DNA from: Deltaproteobacteria bacterium
GTDB lineage: Bacteria; UBA10199; JACPAL01
Length of the DNA stretch: 49,849 bases
Assembly (NCBI GenBank): GCA_016180855.1
Contig: JACPAL010000017.1
Location: 1-49,849, forward strand
Direction: 5' to 3'
Part shown: positions 43 to 30,796 of the stretch, in pieces
Numbering within the stretch: the stretch's first letter is position 1
How the letters are laid out: every line of letters begins with the position of its first letter
Made by a program: the position numbers and the translations under genes
Notes under the pieces: model-generated
What the model was told of the DNA's origin: nothing
Seen by the model: the letters and a program-made list of their open reading frames with translations, nothing else
Databases searched by the model: none

Positions 43-3000
43 GTGAGAGAGATGCTCAAACGGTTTGCCTTTGGGCTGATTATTCTGCTCCCCCTTTTCC
101 CCTTAATTTTATTGGCTGGCTCCCCAGTGATCAAACAACCGGTCCCGATCAAAAATATTGCGGGAATCAAACCAACTTGCGGGAAGAAGGTCTGTATTAC
201 TGTCGAGTCTACAGAAAATCTGAAAAAAGATTTCCCAAAACTCTCTTTGGAAGGAAAACCGATTGCTATCATGGTTGGGCCGAATAAAAAACCACAGAGG
301 TTCATCCCTGATCAGATTATTTTCAAGCCACGCGACCTGGCCCACTTAAAGACTTTTCTCAAAAGGACGAACGCAAAGATCCTTCATGACGGGACACTGG
401 CTCTCCCCCCTCAACGAGCAGGATTAAACAATCCAAAGATTCGTCCCAAAAAAAGTGGTTATTACCTCCTCAAAATACCGGCTTTCACTAGACCGAATTC
501 AAAAGAATTTGCGAAACTGATGGAATCTCAATTGAAGTCGGCAAATGGGACCTATCGGTTGAATCAAGAAGGATTGGCCCTCACTCATTTCATCTTGAAG
601 GAAACGGCACGAGGAGAAAAAGTATCGCCCAATGTAATCATTGATTCAGCGGCGCAACCTGATGTCATGAGCTTTACGGAGGAAGAACTTGTTGATGACC
701 TTTTCCTTGATGCCTTCGATTTCCCAGGAGTTGGCACCCCTTATGGTGTTAATCTCCAGAAGGCATGGCAGTATATTGATCTCCTGCAACCATCAGCCGC
801 AACAGCAAACCCCAACACAGAGGAGCGAGACACGATGGTCAAGGTCGCCTTCATTGATGAGGGATTCAGGGCTGTCCCCGATCTCATTTCCACTGATCTC
901 ACATTGGATGGCTGGGATTCGGAATGTTCTACATGGGATAATGGGCCCTGGTATTATTCGCACGAACCGGTTTGTACTGAGTGGAACGTTGATTACAGTG
1001 TTATAAACGAACCGATCATCTCAGCCGTAAATTCGTCCACATGTCTAAACGACATCTGTTGGCATGGGTTTAATGTTGAAAGCGTCGCCGCCTCGAGGAT
1101 CAACAACTCCGTAGGTATTGCCGGGACCGGTGGACAGGTCATCTATCCGATCCTCATGCAGCGTGGCAATTTAATTACTCGCAGACCCACAACCTACGAA
1201 GATGCCTGGCTCGTCCTAAGTGCCACGATGCCAGAGTGGGGCACACAGATTATCAATATGAGTTTTGGCATGATTGATGACGGGTCAGAGACGTTTGACT
1301 ATAATATAGACCCTTTAAGGGAGGCGGTTGGTGCAGCAGTCGACGCGGGAGTCATTGTCGTCGCCGCTGCCGGTAATGAGAGTGTCAGTCTTGATCTTCA
1401 TGCGAGCACGGTCTGTGGAGTTGACGGGATCATCTGCGTCGGTGCCGGAGATACGGCACGATGGGTCGTACGCGGTGTCTTTCGCAGTGTAGAGCTACCC
1501 GCTGGAGGTGGTGTCGGAGTCGAATGTGTGGCTCCCGATCCCGAAGGGCCAGCGACATTGACTGATTGTGATAGAGCTGGTTCCAATTGGGGAGGGAACG
1601 TCGACATCTGGGCCCCTGTCCCCCTAAAAACTCTTAATGCACCAAAATGTGATACGGATTATCCCTGTTCCACTCCCGAAGAGATTGAGGCAAGACCAAT
1701 CAATGTCAGTAGTGGAAGTGCAACTTCTCATGCAACTCCTTATATCACTGGTGTCATTGCGATGATGAAGGCATTGAAACCCTCACTGACAGCGGATGAG
1801 GCAAGAATGATTCTGAGAGATACAGCGACACCGAGCGACGATCCTCTCGTCACGCCCGGTTATGTCAATCCCTACAAGGCGATCCAGCATGTGATGGAGC
1901 TTCAAGGGCTGACACTTCCCGATGACGGAAATGACACCCCTGAAGAATCGATTGCAACCAGTATCGGACTCGCCCCAGAATCGTCAGCATTAGGATCGAT
2001 CATCCCTGGAGGGGATGAGGATTTTTACACCTTTACCTTTCCTGACACCTATTCATCGCTTCGCATTGAATTGCTAGCGGGAAATCACGAGATCAATGGA
2101 CCATTTTATGCCCACCTTTATACAGATGGTTACTTGCTCGGCGAACCTTTTTTCTCGGTCACCCCTTATCCGGGTGGGTCTTATGATGCCTCTTTGGTCC
2201 CTCCTCGCCAAAGATATGACGTGAAGATAAAGGGACTTGACGATACCTTCGGTAATTATCGTCTTCGATTCATTCGGAGTAACGGCGCCGTTTCACCCGA
2301 TCGTTATGATGATCAATCTCCCACGGGAGAGGCTCGAAATGACCGACGGGAAGATGCCGCAAGACTCGGTATTGATTCCGGAGGTGAAATCACACGAGAG
2401 GATCTGATCAGTCCCTTCGGGGCAAGGGTCATGGATCTGAATTTCGATCGGGCCGCCGGAGGCACGAGTCCGTATCCTGCCGACCCTGAGGATCTCGACA
2501 TTGATTATTTCATTCTCGAACTCCCCTCAGAGGTACCAACAGGTCAATTTGGGATACTTGGAACCGACTGTCTTTCAGACGATGCCCTTACATCGATGGA
2601 AGCGGAAATAGAAGGTCTTAGGGGTCGCGATATGGACCTCAACTATTCACCAGGATATCTCCAGGTCTATGCAGAACCTTACCATTACTTGGATCATGAT
2701 TGGCCTGAAAGTATTCATATCGAGCTTTTCAACGGCGACACATGGGCCCCGCTCGAACTCGAATCGATTCCACCGATCGATTTTGGACTCCCCGGTTATG
2801 ATACCAGAGAGGAAGGAACAGATATCACCCTCACTGGACCGCCTGTACTCACATGTCCTCGTCAAAAGGTTCCATCAGGCCGTATCGGAATAAAAGTGAC
2901 CTCAACAGGTACAGCAGAACCAAGAAATTTTTACAATCTCACATTGAAGTATCGAGGATGGGGAATCTATCCTGTAGAACACCGAAATCCACTTCCCCCT

Positions 3001-3423
3001 TTGGAGCTCCTGCTCGATATTAGCCGCCTGCTGGCTCTCTTTAAGGATTTTGACCTCACGGGGGGTAACTCCGAAAAGTGGTTCTCGTTTCAATATCCTA
3101 AAATTCTTGACAAATGTGCAAACACAGCCTGCCCTGATCCACTACCGGATTATTTTGTCATCAGTCTTCAGAATGAACTCAGGGACTTTATTTTCGAGGT
3201 CATGACTGACTCCACCTGTCATCTCAATACAAGGTTCCTCGATAACCAAAAAAGTCCGATACACGCCCGTGAAAAAATGGAGATACGAAAGGATGGCCGA
3301 CGAGAAACGAAAGGGTTTCAGATCGACAGGCTCACAAAAGGAAAATATCTCATTGAGATCGACGGCAGCTCTCCTTGTCCCTATCAGATAAGAATGGGGA
3401 ATAAGAGACGTCAAAAAGGTTAA
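43..3423 (+). CDS. Secreted subtilisin-like (S8) serine protease with C-terminal beta domains
   Basis: A large exported S8-family endopeptidase. Numbering from the GTG at 43 (1126 residues), the triad is Asp272 in VAFIDEG, His341 in WHGFNVESVAA and Ser562 in SGSATSHATP; the oxyanion Asn is in VVAAAGNE. The first 25 residues form a signal peptide (hydrophobic LIILLPLFPLILLAG) without a lipobox Cys. About 200 residues precede the catalytic domain and may be an inhibitory propeptide. After the protease domain, a stretch around residues 645-745 (GGDEDFYTFTF) resembles a pre-peptidase C-terminal (PPC) domain, followed by further beta-rich sequence. The ATG at 52 may be the true start: it begins a cleaner signal peptide, but the GAGAGAG in front of it is too close to be a normal ribosome site. 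The stop interlocks with the convergent gene. Substrate is unknown. Confidence 0.88.
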   Translation: MREMLKRFAFGLIILLPLFPLILLAGSPVIKQPVPIKNIAGIKPTCGKKVCITVESTENLKKDFPKLSLEGKPIAIMVGPNKKPQRFIPDQIIFKPRDLAHLKTFLKRTNAKILHDGTLALPPQRAGLNNPKIRPKKSGYYLLKIPAFTRPNSKEFAKLMESQLKSANGTYRLNQEGLALTHFILKETARGEKVSPNVIIDSAAQPDVMSFTEEELVDDLFLDAFDFPGVGTPYGVNLQKAWQYIDLLQPSAATANPNTEERDTMVKVAFIDEGFRAVPDLISTDLTLDGWDSECSTWDNGPWYYSHEPVCTEWNVDYSVINEPIISAVNSSTCLNDICWHGFNVESVAASRINNSVGIAGTGGQVIYPILMQRGNLITRRPTTYEDAWLVLSATMPEWGTQIINMSFGMIDDGSETFDYNIDPLREAVGAAVDAGVIVVAAAGNESVSLDLHASTVCGVDGIICVGAGDTARWVVRGVFRSVELPAGGGVGVECVAPDPEGPATLTDCDRAGSNWGGNVDIWAPVPLKTLNAPKCDTDYPCSTPEEIEARPINVSSGSATSHATPYITGVIAMMKALKPSLTADEARMILRDTATPSDDPLVTPGYVNPYKAIQHVMELQGLTLPDDGNDTPEESIATSIGLAPESSALGSIIPGGDEDFYTFTFPDTYSSLRIELLAGNHEINGPFYAHLYTDGYLLGEPFFSVTPYPGGSYDASLVPPRQRYDVKIKGLDDTFGNYRLRFIRSNGAVSPDRYDDQSPTGEARNDRREDAARLGIDSGGEITREDLISPFGARVMDLNFDRAAGGTSPYPADPEDLDIDYFILELPSEVPTGQFGILGTDCLSDDALTSMEAEIEGLRGRDMDLNYSPGYLQVYAEPYHYLDHDWPESIHIELFNGDTWAPLELESIPPIDFGLPGYDTREEGTDITLTGPPVLTCPRQKVPSGRIGIKVTSTGTAEPRNFYNLTLKYRGWGIYPVEHRNPLPPLELLLDISRLLALFKDFDLTGGNSEKWFSFQYPKILDKCANTACPDPLPDYFVISLQNELRDFIFEVMTDSTCHLNTRFLDNQKSPIHAREKMEIRKDGRRETKGFQIDRLTKGKYLIEIDGSSPCPYQIRMGNKRRQKG

Positions 3424-24553: not shown

Positions 24554-24569
24554 TGGCACATTCTTTGCG
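24554..24569 (+). promoter_or_regulatory. Candidate sigma-54 promoter for the 24.6-30.8 kb operon
   Basis: TGGCACATTCTTTGCG matches TGGCACG-N4-TTGCW at 10 of 12 fixed positions, including TGGCAC and TTGC in full, with GG (24555-24556) and GC (24567-24568) exactly 10 bases apart. The predicted start is near 24580, 12 nt before the ATG at 24592, with GGGAAG (24583-24588) as ribosome site. Confidence 0.65.
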
Positions 24570-24591: not shown

Positions 24592-27366
24592 ATGTCCGGA
24601 AGTTTACAACGGCTCTTTTTATCGTTGGTTCTTCTGCCTGTCTCACTTGTGGCAGGGGAATATGGGGCGAATAGAAATCAGCAGCAGTTTAATCAACTCA
24701 GTGAGGCCGGCCGGACCTTGGCGAACGGTAATTTTACATTGCTGGGGTACAACAGGATCCAAAAACCGCAGTTTTCTCTTGAAGAGGTAAGCGCGGGGGA
24801 TCTCATTTACAATGGAGGCGTTGGGACCGGCTCAGGTAATTCCTATTTTTGCAGCGGAGAGGATGAGGCGAACGAATATCGGCGTCTCCATCCGGATCTG
24901 GAGATCAATTCACAGTGGAATCCAAATAGCGGGTTTGAAGATTATGGGCAGTACAAGATTCTCCGTTTGGTCGACCACTGTCGAACCGGTTCTGGTTGCG
25001 GTGATCTGATTCCTGATGGGAAGACGTTTCTCGTCGGCATTCCGCTCCATGCCACCAATTGTCATCCGCTCGGTCGGCAATTTGTCAGGGATGGGACGGG
25101 TTGGGGCTCTTCGACAAATCTTCGTCAGAGATCAGACGATGCCTGGCAGGGGAGAAATTATATCGATGATGGCCATTTCTTCACCTATGGGCGCTATTTG
25201 ATCAATCAGTTGTCGGAAAATCTATCGGGGGCGGCGCTTCGGACGGAGGCGTATGATGAGCTGAGTGTCTCGATCACGAGTGGGGACGTTTATAGTTTAG
25301 GTGGAATCAGCCCCAATTATCTCGACCTTCCCTACAGCTCCGCCCATCTCCAATGGGGTTTTACCTGCTCACAGGCGTTTCGGGCCGGTGGTTATCGAAA
25401 GAGTCTTTCTCTCTTTCCAAGGGGGAACTCTTTAACGAGCAAGACTGTTACCGTACGACAGGCAGAGGCGGAACGTGGGCTACATTATCGGACACTCCTT
25501 GAATATGCAACGAACCGGCTCGGTCACAAAATCAATCATGGGGAATACGGTGTTGTCAGGTCACGCATCGAGGGGGATCTCAAGCAGGGGCTCAGTACGG
25601 AAGAGCGTGAAATGCGTGAGATCGTCGTTAATATCTGGAGGATTTTAGACGAGATCATTGGCGATGTCGAATGGGAACCATGCACCGGTGATTTCTGTTG
25701 GATCCGGGCAATTGCGGAATCCCTGTACGGCCCAAAAATCAGGATAAAACGATGCGCCGTGGCACGCGGTTCAATTGTCGATTATCAACATGACGAGGCC
25801 CGAATCTGTATCAAGTCGGAGGTCTTCAACGACTGTCAGAGCAAACGGACGAACAACTCACATCCATTTTATAATACGGGTGGTGTTACCCAAGGCTCCT
25901 CTTGCACTCCCTCGTATGGTGAAAAGGTCGATGGCGGACTTTACATCCGTAACTGGGAGGTCGATCGCGGTTATCAACTCCGGGATGTTGGATCCCACAT
26001 GGGGGCGATTCGTGGTCTAAGCGGCTATCTCCCGGCGGATGGGTACAGCCCGGTGATCGTCTCCCTTATTGCGCATCAGCTGGTCCACGCCTATTTTCAA
26101 AGAGAACTTGATCGGAACCGGATGAATGGATGGCCCAACAGCCCTGAATCGCTTTGGGAGGAGGAGTTGGCTGTCATGGCCCAAGCGATCGTCTTCGACC
26201 TCCTTCGTCAGATGGATTACGTCGATTCAACCTTTAAGATGAAGAAAGAGGAGTTTACGCGCTCTATCCAAAGAGAGACACCAGGCGATACAAGTACTGG
26301 CGTCGTTGATACGACAAGTGGTGTCCGCTACTTCTATCCGGATGAATGTCGAGGCTACGGTGGCATCTTTCTGGGTCCTTTCTGTGCCAACATGCGGAAC
26401 ATCCACGCGACGCTTGCGAATCAGGATAATCCTGAATTAGGTCGTATGATGGCGCTTTTCCATTCTCTTGCGCCGATCTTCGATCTTCCAAACAAAATGA
26501 CCTTCAATGGTGTTGAGATCGATGTTCGAGAGTCTCGTCCCTCTGATTCTACAACCTCGGCCAGTGCAGAACATCCCAGATGGGTGACGGCAAGTGCCGA
26601 CTTGGCTGTTAGTCTCGAAACGAATCCAGTAAGGGTCGATAGGGGCGGGACACTGATGAGTACTGTCCATGTGCGGAATGTCGGACCCGATCGTGTCGAA
26701 CAGGCCTCTCTCAGTATCACCTTGCCTGCGGCCCTTTCGTACGTCTCTTCCGCTGTTGTGCAGACCGGTGGAGGCGAGTGCAGCCATTTTCCCGCAGTCA
26801 ATCGACTTTTTTGTGATTTGGGGAGTGTTGAGGGGGCACAGATTGTTGATGTCAATTTTACTATCATAGGGAGTGAAGAAGGCTCCTATGCGGCGATCAT
26901 TGAAGTAGACGGCAGCATTGCCGATTTGGATACCTCCAACAATGAGCAGGAACTCCAGATTGTCGTTGGGCCTCCTCTGGCCGATTTACAAGTCAATATG
27001 GATTCGGATCCGTTGCCCACTTACGCTGTCGGTAATCCCGTTTTGTATGTTGTCGTTGTTGAAAATTTGGGGCCTGAGGCGGCTCTGAATGTGTCACTTG
27101 TTTTTGATGACATCTCCAATCTCCTCACATTTAATTCTGTTAACATGATTCCATCATCGGCAGGGGATTGTTACTATGAGGAAGGTTCCGGGGTAATTTT
27201 TTGCGGTTTTCTTGGAAGCGTTGCCCCGGGTGCCTCCTTCACTATTTCTATTGAGATGACACCGCTCGGCAGCGGGACCCACATCACCAAATCGGTTGTG
27301 AGTAGCGATTCGAATGACCTGATCGATGGCAATAATCAATCAACCAACGTCATTGAGGTGCCGTGA
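24592..27366 (+). CDS. Large exported protein with HQxxH motif and two C-terminal DUF11-like domains
   Basis: 924 residues. Signal peptide MSGSLQRLFLSLVLLPVSLVAG. The long middle part is of unknown family and contains Cys pairs. H495QLVH499 (IAHQLVHAYFQ), followed by a Glu-rich helix (LWEEELAVMAQAIVF), looks like a gluzincin-type zinc site, but the catalytic Glu of HExxH is Gln, so hydrolysis is doubtful. The C-terminal 230 residues are two immunoglobulin-like DUF11/CARDB-type repeats (ADLAVSLETNPVRVDRGG... and ADLQVNMDSDPLPTYAVG...). The stop overlaps the next gene (TGATG). First gene of a three-gene exported-protein operon behind a sigma-54-like promoter. Confidence 0.8.
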   Translation: MSGSLQRLFLSLVLLPVSLVAGEYGANRNQQQFNQLSEAGRTLANGNFTLLGYNRIQKPQFSLEEVSAGDLIYNGGVGTGSGNSYFCSGEDEANEYRRLHPDLEINSQWNPNSGFEDYGQYKILRLVDHCRTGSGCGDLIPDGKTFLVGIPLHATNCHPLGRQFVRDGTGWGSSTNLRQRSDDAWQGRNYIDDGHFFTYGRYLINQLSENLSGAALRTEAYDELSVSITSGDVYSLGGISPNYLDLPYSSAHLQWGFTCSQAFRAGGYRKSLSLFPRGNSLTSKTVTVRQAEAERGLHYRTLLEYATNRLGHKINHGEYGVVRSRIEGDLKQGLSTEEREMREIVVNIWRILDEIIGDVEWEPCTGDFCWIRAIAESLYGPKIRIKRCAVARGSIVDYQHDEARICIKSEVFNDCQSKRTNNSHPFYNTGGVTQGSSCTPSYGEKVDGGLYIRNWEVDRGYQLRDVGSHMGAIRGLSGYLPADGYSPVIVSLIAHQLVHAYFQRELDRNRMNGWPNSPESLWEEELAVMAQAIVFDLLRQMDYVDSTFKMKKEEFTRSIQRETPGDTSTGVVDTTSGVRYFYPDECRGYGGIFLGPFCANMRNIHATLANQDNPELGRMMALFHSLAPIFDLPNKMTFNGVEIDVRESRPSDSTTSASAEHPRWVTASADLAVSLETNPVRVDRGGTLMSTVHVRNVGPDRVEQASLSITLPAALSYVSSAVVQTGGGECSHFPAVNRLFCDLGSVEGAQIVDVNFTIIGSEEGSYAAIIEVDGSIADLDTSNNEQELQIVVGPPLADLQVNMDSDPLPTYAVGNPVLYVVVVENLGPEAALNVSLVFDDISNLLTFNSVNMIPSSAGDCYYEEGSGVIFCGFLGSVAPGASFTISIEMTPLGSGTHITKSVVSSDSNDLIDGNNQSTNVIEVP

Positions 27367-30077
27367 TGAGAAAGACCTGGTTTACTCTTAACCTTTTTGT
27401 CTCTCTTCTTCTCATGCCGGCGGCCGAATTATGGGCGATCAACTGGTCTGAATTCATGCGCGATGATCGGATGTTTGTCGGTGCGGAGATCACGCAAATA
27501 AATGATTGGCGTCTTCCGGAAGGGTGCCGCCGTGAATCGCTTTCCCCGAATGATGATGAGGTGGAAGAGGAGGATTGCGAACGAATCATCTGCGACGGGC
27601 ATTTTTGGGGGAAATCGGCGATCGATGTCTGTTGTGCGGAGGAGGTGACCACAGAAGGAGAAGGGGAGGAGGCACCTGCCTACAAACGATGTCATGTGAG
27701 GGAACCCCGTTTCAGTTCTACTTCGGGAAGATGGAGACAGGTTCGATTTCAAACACGAGGGATTCCACGATCCGGCTGTGGAACTCATGTTTTAAGGCCA
27801 ACCGAGGCAGAAGAGACGACCTCACTCGTTGATCTGTTATTGTCATCGGCTTATGCCCATCCTGGTTCACGTCCTTCGGACAACCCGATCCCATGGTCCT
27901 ACGAGGAGCGATTACTGATCGCAAACAGCCTCTCTGTGGCGGCCGACCGGATCGAATATGCCCTGACGTCAGGCGATACGTCGGAGGTAGGCACGGAAGG
28001 TTCACAATTTAGGGGGTGGATTGAAGATGCCTTTCTCGTGAGTCGATTTTTGGGCCATACCCTCTCCCCCGTGGGGTTTCCGGCCTGCCCCCCCGAACTG
28101 CTCGGGCTCTGTGACTTTATTGGACACCAGGTCGACGGATATTGGGCCAACCTTTCCCTTTATTTGTTGGGGGAAACACATCACCTGAACAGCTTTATCA
28201 TCACCGCTGATTTTGCCGTCGAGTTGAATCCCACAGCCTTGGGGCTTGCCCTCAATACGATTTCCCATGAGGCAACCCACATTGTCTTCCACTGGAGTCG
28301 TGGACTCTATGCCGATCCGACGGCACCAGGTTTTGATTATGATTTTATAATGAGTACCGATCCGGTGTTGAATTATGAAGACGAGATGACGGCCCGAATC
28401 GTTGGGGCGATTGTCTATCATTTTTTAGCGGATAGTGTCCGCAACGAGTCTCCTGAGGAATGGAATTGGTTGGCAGAGCATTACGGTGGTTCTTTCGACG
28501 ATATGGCGAGAGATCCGGAATACAATGCCAGCAACTCGATGCCTGATTCTTATGTGGAGACCTTCTTTTGGCAAAGTTTAACCGATGAGCAGAGGGCAGA
28601 GGTCTTGGAGTGCATGGATTGGGGGAGCCGCCATGGCTCTATTACGCCGGATAATGAGGAGCTGTACCTCCAGTGGCTTGTTTATTGTATTGGAGAGACG
28701 CTCGGCGAGACGAACGCCGCCGCCTTGCTCAATGAACTTCACAACAGATTGATGGGGCAAGGAGGAGGTGAAGGTTTTGGGGAGAGTGCTGGTTCTTCGG
28801 GTGGGACAGGTGCGGTGTTTGATCTGGCAGAGCATCCAGCCATTCACCACGATTATGTCGATAGTCCAGAGACCGAGACGAGTCCCGGTGGTTCCTCCGA
28901 AGGGGAACCGCCACCGAGCGATTTTGACTGGCACCACCCCGGTAATTTTACGGAGGATCCGAATGATCCAAATTATGAGCCGCCGAACACTTCCAACCAT
29001 ATTCCACCGGAATGTGTTGGGACATTTGGTGCGCCGGAGGTAGCTGGGGCGTCAGTTCCTGCTTCTTGTTTTGACTGGTGTTGGAACCATTTTTCACGTG
29101 GACGAGACGGTGGAATCTGTCAACAGATGAGCGATCGTGATCTGGAGAGCGGATGTACCTACTCAACGGGAGATCAGTGTGAGGAGGAGAACGAACAACG
29201 ACTCGATGACTGTAATACAGACGCCTCCTTCCGAAATTCGGAGTTCTGTCAAGAGGCCTGTGGCAGCTCAGGAACTCCGGCCCACTGCGACGAGTTGTGC
29301 GCCAGCAATAGATCACTGCCATTTTGCGATAATATCTGCGGCCGGAATCACACCTACGGATTTTGCGGCGATATCTGTCACAACGACAATAATTCTCACG
29401 GTTTCTGTCAGGATCGATGCGTCGATGACCCCGGGCGACCGTACTGTGACAACATTTGTGCAACGAACCGCTCCTTAAGTTTCTGCGATGATACCTGTTC
29501 GAGAAACCGCTCCTACAGTTATTGTGATGATCTTTGTGCGAGCAATCCGGGCTTAAGTTTCTGCGATGATTTTTGTAGTGAGAACAGCTCGCTTGGTTTT
29601 TGTGACGATGTCTGCCGAAGAAATAATTCTTATGCCTTCTGTGAAAGCTTCTGTGATGCCAATCCGAACCTCGATTTTTGCGCACCTCCCACAGAGAGTT
29701 TTCGGGGTTGGGAGTGCAACGGCCCTTGGGTTTCCCGGGGTAGTCGCACCCTCTGGGAGCATTGGATGTTGACCAACTGTTATCCCTATGTGGGGCCTGT
29801 CCGCTGCTGTGGAACACCCACCGCGGAAATGTCGGAGCTCATGAGTGCATTCGGGATTTCAGGAGAGCTTTGTCTGCCGGAGACATCAGGTCCTGAATGT
29901 AACGCGAGGGATTACTGTGGTTGCGGAACTCATTACACATTGGCTGATTCTGCCAATTGTTGCATTGAGCCTGGGAGTGGTGCGGTCGGTTATTTTGCCT
30001 GCGATACGGACTTTATCTCGGACGGTGTTGATAATGTCGCTGGCTGCAACTGTTATCTTGTCTCCGGTTGTCGTTAG
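27366..30077 (+). CDS. Large exported protein with HExxH motif and Cys-rich tandem repeats
   Basis: 903 residues from the ATG at 27366 (a GTG just before it is possible). Signal peptide ending LLLMPAAELWA. H301EATH305 in ISHEATHIVFHW is a canonical zinc metallopeptidase motif, and the acidic NYEDEMTARIVGAIV about 40 residues later could give the third ligand. A Gly/Ser/Pro-rich linker (residues 470-550) leads to a Cys-rich part. Residues about 641-772 are ten tandem 13-residue units of the form FCDDxCxxNxSxx, and more Cys-rich sequence follows to the end. Paired with the preceding gene, which has a degenerate HQxxH. Function unknown; a surface or secreted metalloprotease with a Cys-repeat stalk is the best guess. 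Confidence 0.8.
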   Translation: MRKTWFTLNLFVSLLLMPAAELWAINWSEFMRDDRMFVGAEITQINDWRLPEGCRRESLSPNDDEVEEEDCERIICDGHFWGKSAIDVCCAEEVTTEGEGEEAPAYKRCHVREPRFSSTSGRWRQVRFQTRGIPRSGCGTHVLRPTEAEETTSLVDLLLSSAYAHPGSRPSDNPIPWSYEERLLIANSLSVAADRIEYALTSGDTSEVGTEGSQFRGWIEDAFLVSRFLGHTLSPVGFPACPPELLGLCDFIGHQVDGYWANLSLYLLGETHHLNSFIITADFAVELNPTALGLALNTISHEATHIVFHWSRGLYADPTAPGFDYDFIMSTDPVLNYEDEMTARIVGAIVYHFLADSVRNESPEEWNWLAEHYGGSFDDMARDPEYNASNSMPDSYVETFFWQSLTDEQRAEVLECMDWGSRHGSITPDNEELYLQWLVYCIGETLGETNAAALLNELHNRLMGQGGGEGFGESAGSSGGTGAVFDLAEHPAIHHDYVDSPETETSPGGSSEGEPPPSDFDWHHPGNFTEDPNDPNYEPPNTSNHIPPECVGTFGAPEVAGASVPASCFDWCWNHFSRGRDGGICQQMSDRDLESGCTYSTGDQCEEENEQRLDDCNTDASFRNSEFCQEACGSSGTPAHCDELCASNRSLPFCDNICGRNHTYGFCGDICHNDNNSHGFCQDRCVDDPGRPYCDNICATNRSLSFCDDTCSRNRSYSYCDDLCASNPGLSFCDDFCSENSSLGFCDDVCRRNNSYAFCESFCDANPNLDFCAPPTESFRGWECNGPWVSRGSRTLWEHWMLTNCYPYVGPVRCCGTPTAEMSELMSAFGISGELCLPETSGPECNARDYCGCGTHYTLADSANCCIEPGSGAVGYFACDTDFISDGVDNVAGCNCYLVSGCR
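29286..29681 (+). repeat. Ten tandem 39-nt units encoding 13-residue Cys repeats
   Basis: The translated unit is FCDDxCxxNxSxx, with Cys spacing C-x3-C-x8-C. Ten units run from HCDELC to FCAPP. One unit is 14 residues long. DNA copies have diverged from each other (aromatic/Cys/Asp conserved, variable positions free), so it is an old protein repeat rather than a recent DNA expansion. Confidence 0.9.
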
Positions 30078-30085
30078 GAGGAGTG

Positions 30086-30796
30086 ATGATTAAAAAATAT
30101 CCTCTTGTGATCCTTTTGGTTGTCATCGGGACGTTACTTTTGTTTCCCCTCGAAGCGGTTTCGTCCCTCCTTGAGGAGGTGAGATCGAAAAGTCTGCTCG
30201 GTGAAGTTCAATATGATGAGGAGAGGAACGAACAGGCCAAGGAACGCCTGATATCAGTCCAACCTCTCCCTGACCCTGGACAAAAAGGAACGAGTTCACG
30301 CAGAAAAACAGAGGTTCATATTTTTAGTTCTGGAAAAAGTTTTGAGGAGTGCCTCAATCTACTCAAGGCAAAAGGAGTTGATCTCCATGAGACGGACGTC
30401 TTCTCTCAGAAAGTGCGTTTGCCAACCGTCATGAAACAGGTTGAGGATTTAAAAAAGAGGAACCGGCAAATCCATGAAATGGAAAATCAGCTCCCCAATC
30501 CGATTTATATTGAAGGATACCGCGAGGCTCGAGGGAGGGTCGATGAGAGCTCGTTTCTTATCCTCTCCTCACACACCTTTGATTCATTTCTTAATCAATG
30601 GGTGCTGAGGAGCTCTCTCACCTTTGTTGTTTCTTCTGAGGAGATGGACAACTCTCCATTGCCGGAATCCCCAAAAGGATCCGCGCCGAGTTACAAAGCT
30701 GATCCTCATAAGAAGGCCGCTCCGAAACAATCGACTGGTAAAATGCCACCTTCTCCTCCTGTCTCGAAAAAGACATTAAAACCCGTTGCAAAGTGA
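30086..30796 (+). CDS. Exported or membrane-anchored protein, unknown function
   Basis: 236 residues from the ATG at 30086, which has AGGAGG 5 bases upstream. N-terminal hydrophobic segment (YPLVILLVVIGTLLLFPLEAV) is a signal or anchor. A helical middle (VMKQVEDLKKRNRQIHEMENQL) is probably coiled-coil. The last 50 residues are Pro/Lys/Ser-rich and low in complexity, and this part overlaps the antisense lipoprotein gene by 179 bp. Third gene of the exported-protein operon, 8 bp after the previous stop. No family recognised. Confidence 0.6.
   Translation: MIKKYPLVILLVVIGTLLLFPLEAVSSLLEEVRSKSLLGEVQYDEERNEQAKERLISVQPLPDPGQKGTSSRRKTEVHIFSSGKSFEECLNLLKAKGVDLHETDVFSQKVRLPTVMKQVEDLKKRNRQIHEMENQLPNPIYIEGYREARGRVDESSFLILSSHTFDSFLNQWVLRSSLTFVVSSEEMDNSPLPESPKGSAPSYKADPHKKAAPKQSTGKMPPSPPVSKKTLKPVAK

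Follow-up and report, generated by a model that had tools for sequence, protein, structure and literature searches.

A recurrent exported-protein operon of a deltaproteobacterial family pairs an HExxH protein with a partner carrying a degenerate motif

The stretch of DNA analysed here (the window) is a 49,849-nt contig (JACPAL010000017.1, C17 below) from a Deltaproteobacteria bacterium whose genome comprises 2.21 Mb in 30 contigs (assembly GCA_016180855.1). Positions 24592-30796 hold three consecutive plus-strand genes for exported proteins, termed A, B and C, the products of which all begin with a signal-peptide-like segment as read from the sequence. Gene A (24592..27366) encodes 924 amino acids with a conserved core at approximately residues 50-655, gene B (27366..30077) encodes ∼903 amino acids, and gene C (30086..30796) encodes a small protein of 236 amino acids, counted from its ATG; A and B each form a set of seven homologues. 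The ATG start of B overlaps the stop codon of A (TGATG); alternative starts are listed for B (a GTG at 27363) and for C (a TTG at 30068). A sequence-only reading of this region had described the genes, their motifs, DUF11-like repeats in A, Cys repeats in B, and a third small exported protein, here gene C; its coordinates and frames, and each of these features, are borne out by an ORF check, Pfam searches and alignment. It had also placed the motifs of A and B at similar relative positions, which is not so (0.54 of the length of A vs. 0.33 of B). Elsewhere in the window (43-3423) lies a gene for a subtilase (Peptidase_S8) of 1126 residues.

Protein B contains the zinc peptidase motif HEATH (residues 301-305; 28266..28280, + strand), and HExxH is found in 8/8 homologues, namely the seven operon copies and one truncated orphan. 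In the alignment of B proteins, a glutamate lies 27-53 residues after the first His of this motif; in the window copy it is Glu340 (28383..28385, + strand), the proposed third zinc ligand. The six copies that align best all keep this Glu, together with an Ala further on. HExxH followed by a downstream Glu is the pattern of gluzincins (clan MA), and the conservation of the motif across all homologues supports the prediction that B is gluzincin-like. The protein is fast-changing overall, with the His, Glu and His of the motif and the downstream Glu among its few invariant residues. Further downstream, approximately a dozen units of 13 residues with the pattern CxxxC-x8 (Cys spacing 4,9,4,9; residues ∼628-772; 29247..29681, + strand) precede a Cys-rich C-terminal domain (29715..30071, + strand) that aligns in, and stands at the end of, most B copies. 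The repeats are present in five operon copies; they are replaced by a charged Glu/Arg-rich run in the copy on contig C4 of this genome, and by Glu/Arg-rich and Asp/Gly-rich runs in the C6 copy from a related genome.

Protein A has HQLVH (residues 495-499; 26074..26088, + strand), a degenerate form of HExxH that is HQxxH in 6/7 homologues and GEMVH in the remaining one, the C4 copy, where a downstream Glu cluster is also lost while the rest of the protein is conserved. In the window copy this cluster is Glu-Glu-Glu (residues 523-525; 26158..26166, + strand), which a profile comparison aligns with Glu340 of B, at the place of the gluzincin third zinc ligand. HExxH is absent from 7/7 A proteins, and the His and Glu of that motif are never found together. 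Since a single HxxxH is expected by chance in a 900-residue protein, its presence alone says little; it is taken to be more than chance here because HQxxH is kept in six of the seven copies, at 31-40% identity (one orthologous pair at 80%), and because the A-B profile match described below is centred on the motif. The positions at which A is invariant are mostly away from the motif region, many of them in the N-terminal half, which may point to another function of A in those parts. In the pair formed by C11 of the window genome and C3 of the related genome, A has a dN/dS of 0.18 and B one of 0.26, and identity is higher for A (81%) than for B (64%); A is under purifying selection and is not decaying.

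The modules attached to A also vary. Its C-terminus in the window copy consists of DUF11-type repeats (PF01345, E=4e-22; TIGR01451; 26599..27363, + strand), which occur at that place in none of the other six A proteins; the C6 copy instead has DUF4215 and DUF11 modules at its N-terminus, and the other non-window copies have neither. Conserved A and B cores with exchanged attachments would fit cell-surface stalks or anchors.

The A-B-C set was seen seven times, always adjacent: three times in the window genome (C17, C4 and C11) and four times in a second genome, from a different genus in its family (C3, C4, C6 and C7), which also carries the truncated, internally deleted orphan B on C10. Searching other genomes for the gene pair, as the sequence-only reading had proposed, found each of the seven A genes followed by B and then by C, in two genera; this rules out the refuting case of homologues that are never paired. 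A homologue of C stands directly after B in 7/7 operons. The C gene on C11 is split over two frames (L014:5036-5651), both of which hold a similar short segment; either the gene is disrupted or the assembly is at fault. Trees of A and of B share their two pairings with strong support (C11 with C3, and C4 with C7). Each joins copies from both genera, which suggests that the genus split came after at least two operon lineages had formed.

In profile searches, A and B were confined to these two genomes, both among 46 genomes of the class and among 385 in a wider sample; gene C had one further, marginal match within the class. No homologue of the A and B cores was found outside the family in genome contigs, viral contigs, plasmids or the 385 genomes, the other matches of A being to its DUF11 repeats. 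As far as sampled, this distribution indicates a system confined to one family, with parts that travel together. Apart from the DUF11 repeats of A, none of the three proteins had a significant match in Pfam, NCBIfam, PHROGs, PADLOC or PDB sequences; with empty PHROGs and PADLOC scans, nothing supports a role in phages or in defence. Because seven copies of the set, most of them preceded by one type of promoter, occur across two related genomes, we regard A-B-C as a real, unstudied surface or secreted system.

That promoter is of the sigma-54 type. At the window locus, TGGCAC-N5-TTGC (24554..24568, + strand) matches the -24/-12 consensus at 10/10 positions and lies 24 nt upstream of the A start codon. 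Sites matching at 9/10 or better precede five of the six assessable operons (the C11 operon, which starts at a contig edge, was left out), with a probability of ∼1e-14 if sites were randomly scattered. In the related genome they lie directly ahead of A on C3, C4 and C6; on C4 of the window genome, the site is ahead of the gene preceding A. For the C4 and C6 operons of the related genome, and for this preceding gene, the site is upstream only if translation begins internally in the longest ORF; on C6 such an internal start leaves a very short leader. No sigma-54 site was found upstream of the C7 operon. A scan for sigma-70 promoters and terminators around the operon yielded nothing beyond chance. 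On these -24/-12 elements, A-B-C is predicted to be a sigma-54 dependent operon.

The gene that carries the promoter site of the C4 operon of the window genome encodes a YCF48/BNR propeller with laminin-G (L013:9874-11895) and runs in the same direction as A. Near the C4 operon of the related genome there is a gene for a 634-residue protein with a zinc-protease-like motif, HEIAGHG (L042:784-2688), for which Pfam gave no match. The orphan B of the related genome (L046:6958-8265) is directly downstream of a gene for a 1675-residue fusion of protein kinase, TPR, GAF and sigma-54 activator (L046:1626-6653).

The two genomes contain 40-52 sigma-54 type sites each, vs. 8-10 for a control pattern (L074-L161), and both have 4 to 6.5 times as many sites as the reversed control pattern. 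The genes behind these sites appear to encode mostly exported proteins and lipoproteins. A signal-peptide-like start was found in 51/75 ORFs behind sites vs. 5/32 window genes (p=5e-7), a contrast that is somewhat inflated, since export was judged by a simple rule on hydrophobicity, which membrane proteins satisfy too, the best start codon was taken at sigma-54 sites and only the listed start for controls, and all controls come from one window. Both genomes thus have an apparent surface-protein regulon under sigma-54. Sigma-54 has been viewed as a controller of the bacterial exterior, and the bias towards exported proteins observed here agrees with that theme; in the literature the connection mostly concerns how envelope components are made and transported (PMC3162934), whereas here large exported proteins are encoded directly behind the promoters.

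In a profile-profile comparison, residues 488-541 of A match 294-357 of B, with HQ over HE and Glu over Glu, at a score of 33.9 vs. 16.0 ± 2.6 with shuffled columns (reached in 0/150 shuffles) and 21.0 with reversed B. When HxxxH is masked, however, the match is gone; the best remaining score, 19.5, is inside the shuffle range, at a colinear position upstream. Scored alone, this upstream stretch is reached by 1/150 shuffles, although this choice of region was post hoc. Single-sequence structure models of the motif regions (mean pLDDT 44 for B and 39 for A) are too poor to decide. We favour A as a degenerate zincin, with moderate support from the profile match; since that match hinges on the motif, we do not claim proof that A and B share an ancestor. 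The active/inactive pair of the sequence-only reading therefore fares unevenly: B has an active-looking, gluzincin-type site, and A never combines the catalytic Glu with both His residues in the alignment, but A as a degenerate member of the fold of B has gained moderate support from the profile match, set against its dependence on the motif.

A rival account, rather unlikely in our judgement but the strongest of those considered, is that A is not a zincin at all, its HQxxH being structural in an unrelated exported protein (an adhesin, some other enzyme or a binding protein) whose only tie to the protease B is co-expression. In its favour are the failure of A-B similarity to exceed shuffles without HxxxH, the many invariant residues in the N-terminal half of A, the C4 copy, which lacks both the first His and the Glu cluster yet is conserved elsewhere, and the absence of any peptidase family match for A in Pfam scans of all members. 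It is harder to reconcile with a match at the motif itself, Glu on Glu, that no shuffle reached, and, with the caveat on how that region was chosen, with the weak colinear similarity upstream.

Two further readings are less likely. That A is a decoy or inhibitor, occupying B or its substrate so that the protease stays off until needed, would suit a strongly conserved protein encoded first, beside B and with overlapping stop and start codons; we think it improbable, as A is as big as B and has surface-type modules of its own, and the sequence offers nothing to tell inhibition from scaffolding. Less probable still is that B is not a working peptidase and that its HExxH is a structural metal site or belongs to another hydrolase: B has no match to a peptidase family or PDB sequence save one weak zincin-like hit in one member, but invariant His, Glu and His with a downstream Glu, in a family changing this fast, are the signature of a catalytic metal site.

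The reading we prefer, which we consider evenly poised, is that A-B-C encodes a sigma-54-controlled exported pair in which B is a live metallopeptidase, A its dead partner and C an accessory. Its observed basis is gene order, co-occurrence, conserved motifs, promoter elements and purifying selection: the seven sets, HExxH in all B proteins and in no A protein, the constraint on A, the A-B profile match, the shared tree pairs, the exchanged stalk-like modules, and sigma-54 sites both at five of six operons and before other exported-protein genes. Against it stand the loss of the A-B match on masking and the lack of a peptidase-family match for B. A sigma-54 promoter would drive A-B-C, as such promoters would many other surface-protein genes in the lineage. 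B would be secreted as a gluzincin-type zinc metallopeptidase, using HExxH and the downstream Glu, on an exchangeable stalk. A, with a degenerate site that presumably cannot hydrolyse, would be its non-catalytic partner and may position substrate, anchor B or control it, as the inactive subunit does in M16B peptidases and the mitochondrial processing peptidase, and C could be a small accessory factor, such as a folding aid, an inhibitor or an anchor. The divergent operon copies per genome suggest pairs specialised for different cell-surface substrates.

Two-gene peptidases of the M16B group, like the mitochondrial processing peptidase, combine an active and an inactive subunit (reviewed in PMC11266112). 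A-B resembles them in pairing subunits with and without a complete zinc site and, as regards M16B, in the adjacency of the genes, but M16 proteins have HxxEH and a fold of their own, whereas B has HExxH and a downstream Glu. Membership of M16B was rejected on this motif and on Pfam scans of all members, which gave no M16 match. Among the ADAM pseudopeptidases, ADAM7 carries HQLGH (PMC11266112); proteins of the ADAM7 type share with the present system an extracellular setting, Gln in place of the Glu of HExxH, and Cys-rich modules alongside. Unlike A, ADAM pseudopeptidases are animal metzincins with a third His and have no operon partner. B shares HExxH and the downstream Glu with gluzincins, clan MA(E), but has no sequence match to any described family.

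A protease with a pseudoprotease is a known theme, and what is new here is a lineage-restricted variant built from proteins of no named family. Put in its fullest form, which we advance only tentatively, A-B-C would represent secreted metallopeptidases of two subunits, one live and one dead, with a small third protein. They would form an undescribed family specific to this lineage, belonging to no known peptidase family, which has multiplied within a sigma-54 regulon of surface proteins to give several specificities. If true, this would provide a clear-cut example from bacteria, and one not belonging to M16, in which an inactive protease has been retained next to its active partner across several operon copies, so that the job of the pseudoprotease could be tested directly; and large exported proteins tied to sigma-54 would offer a handle on how a little-studied lineage regulates its cell surface.
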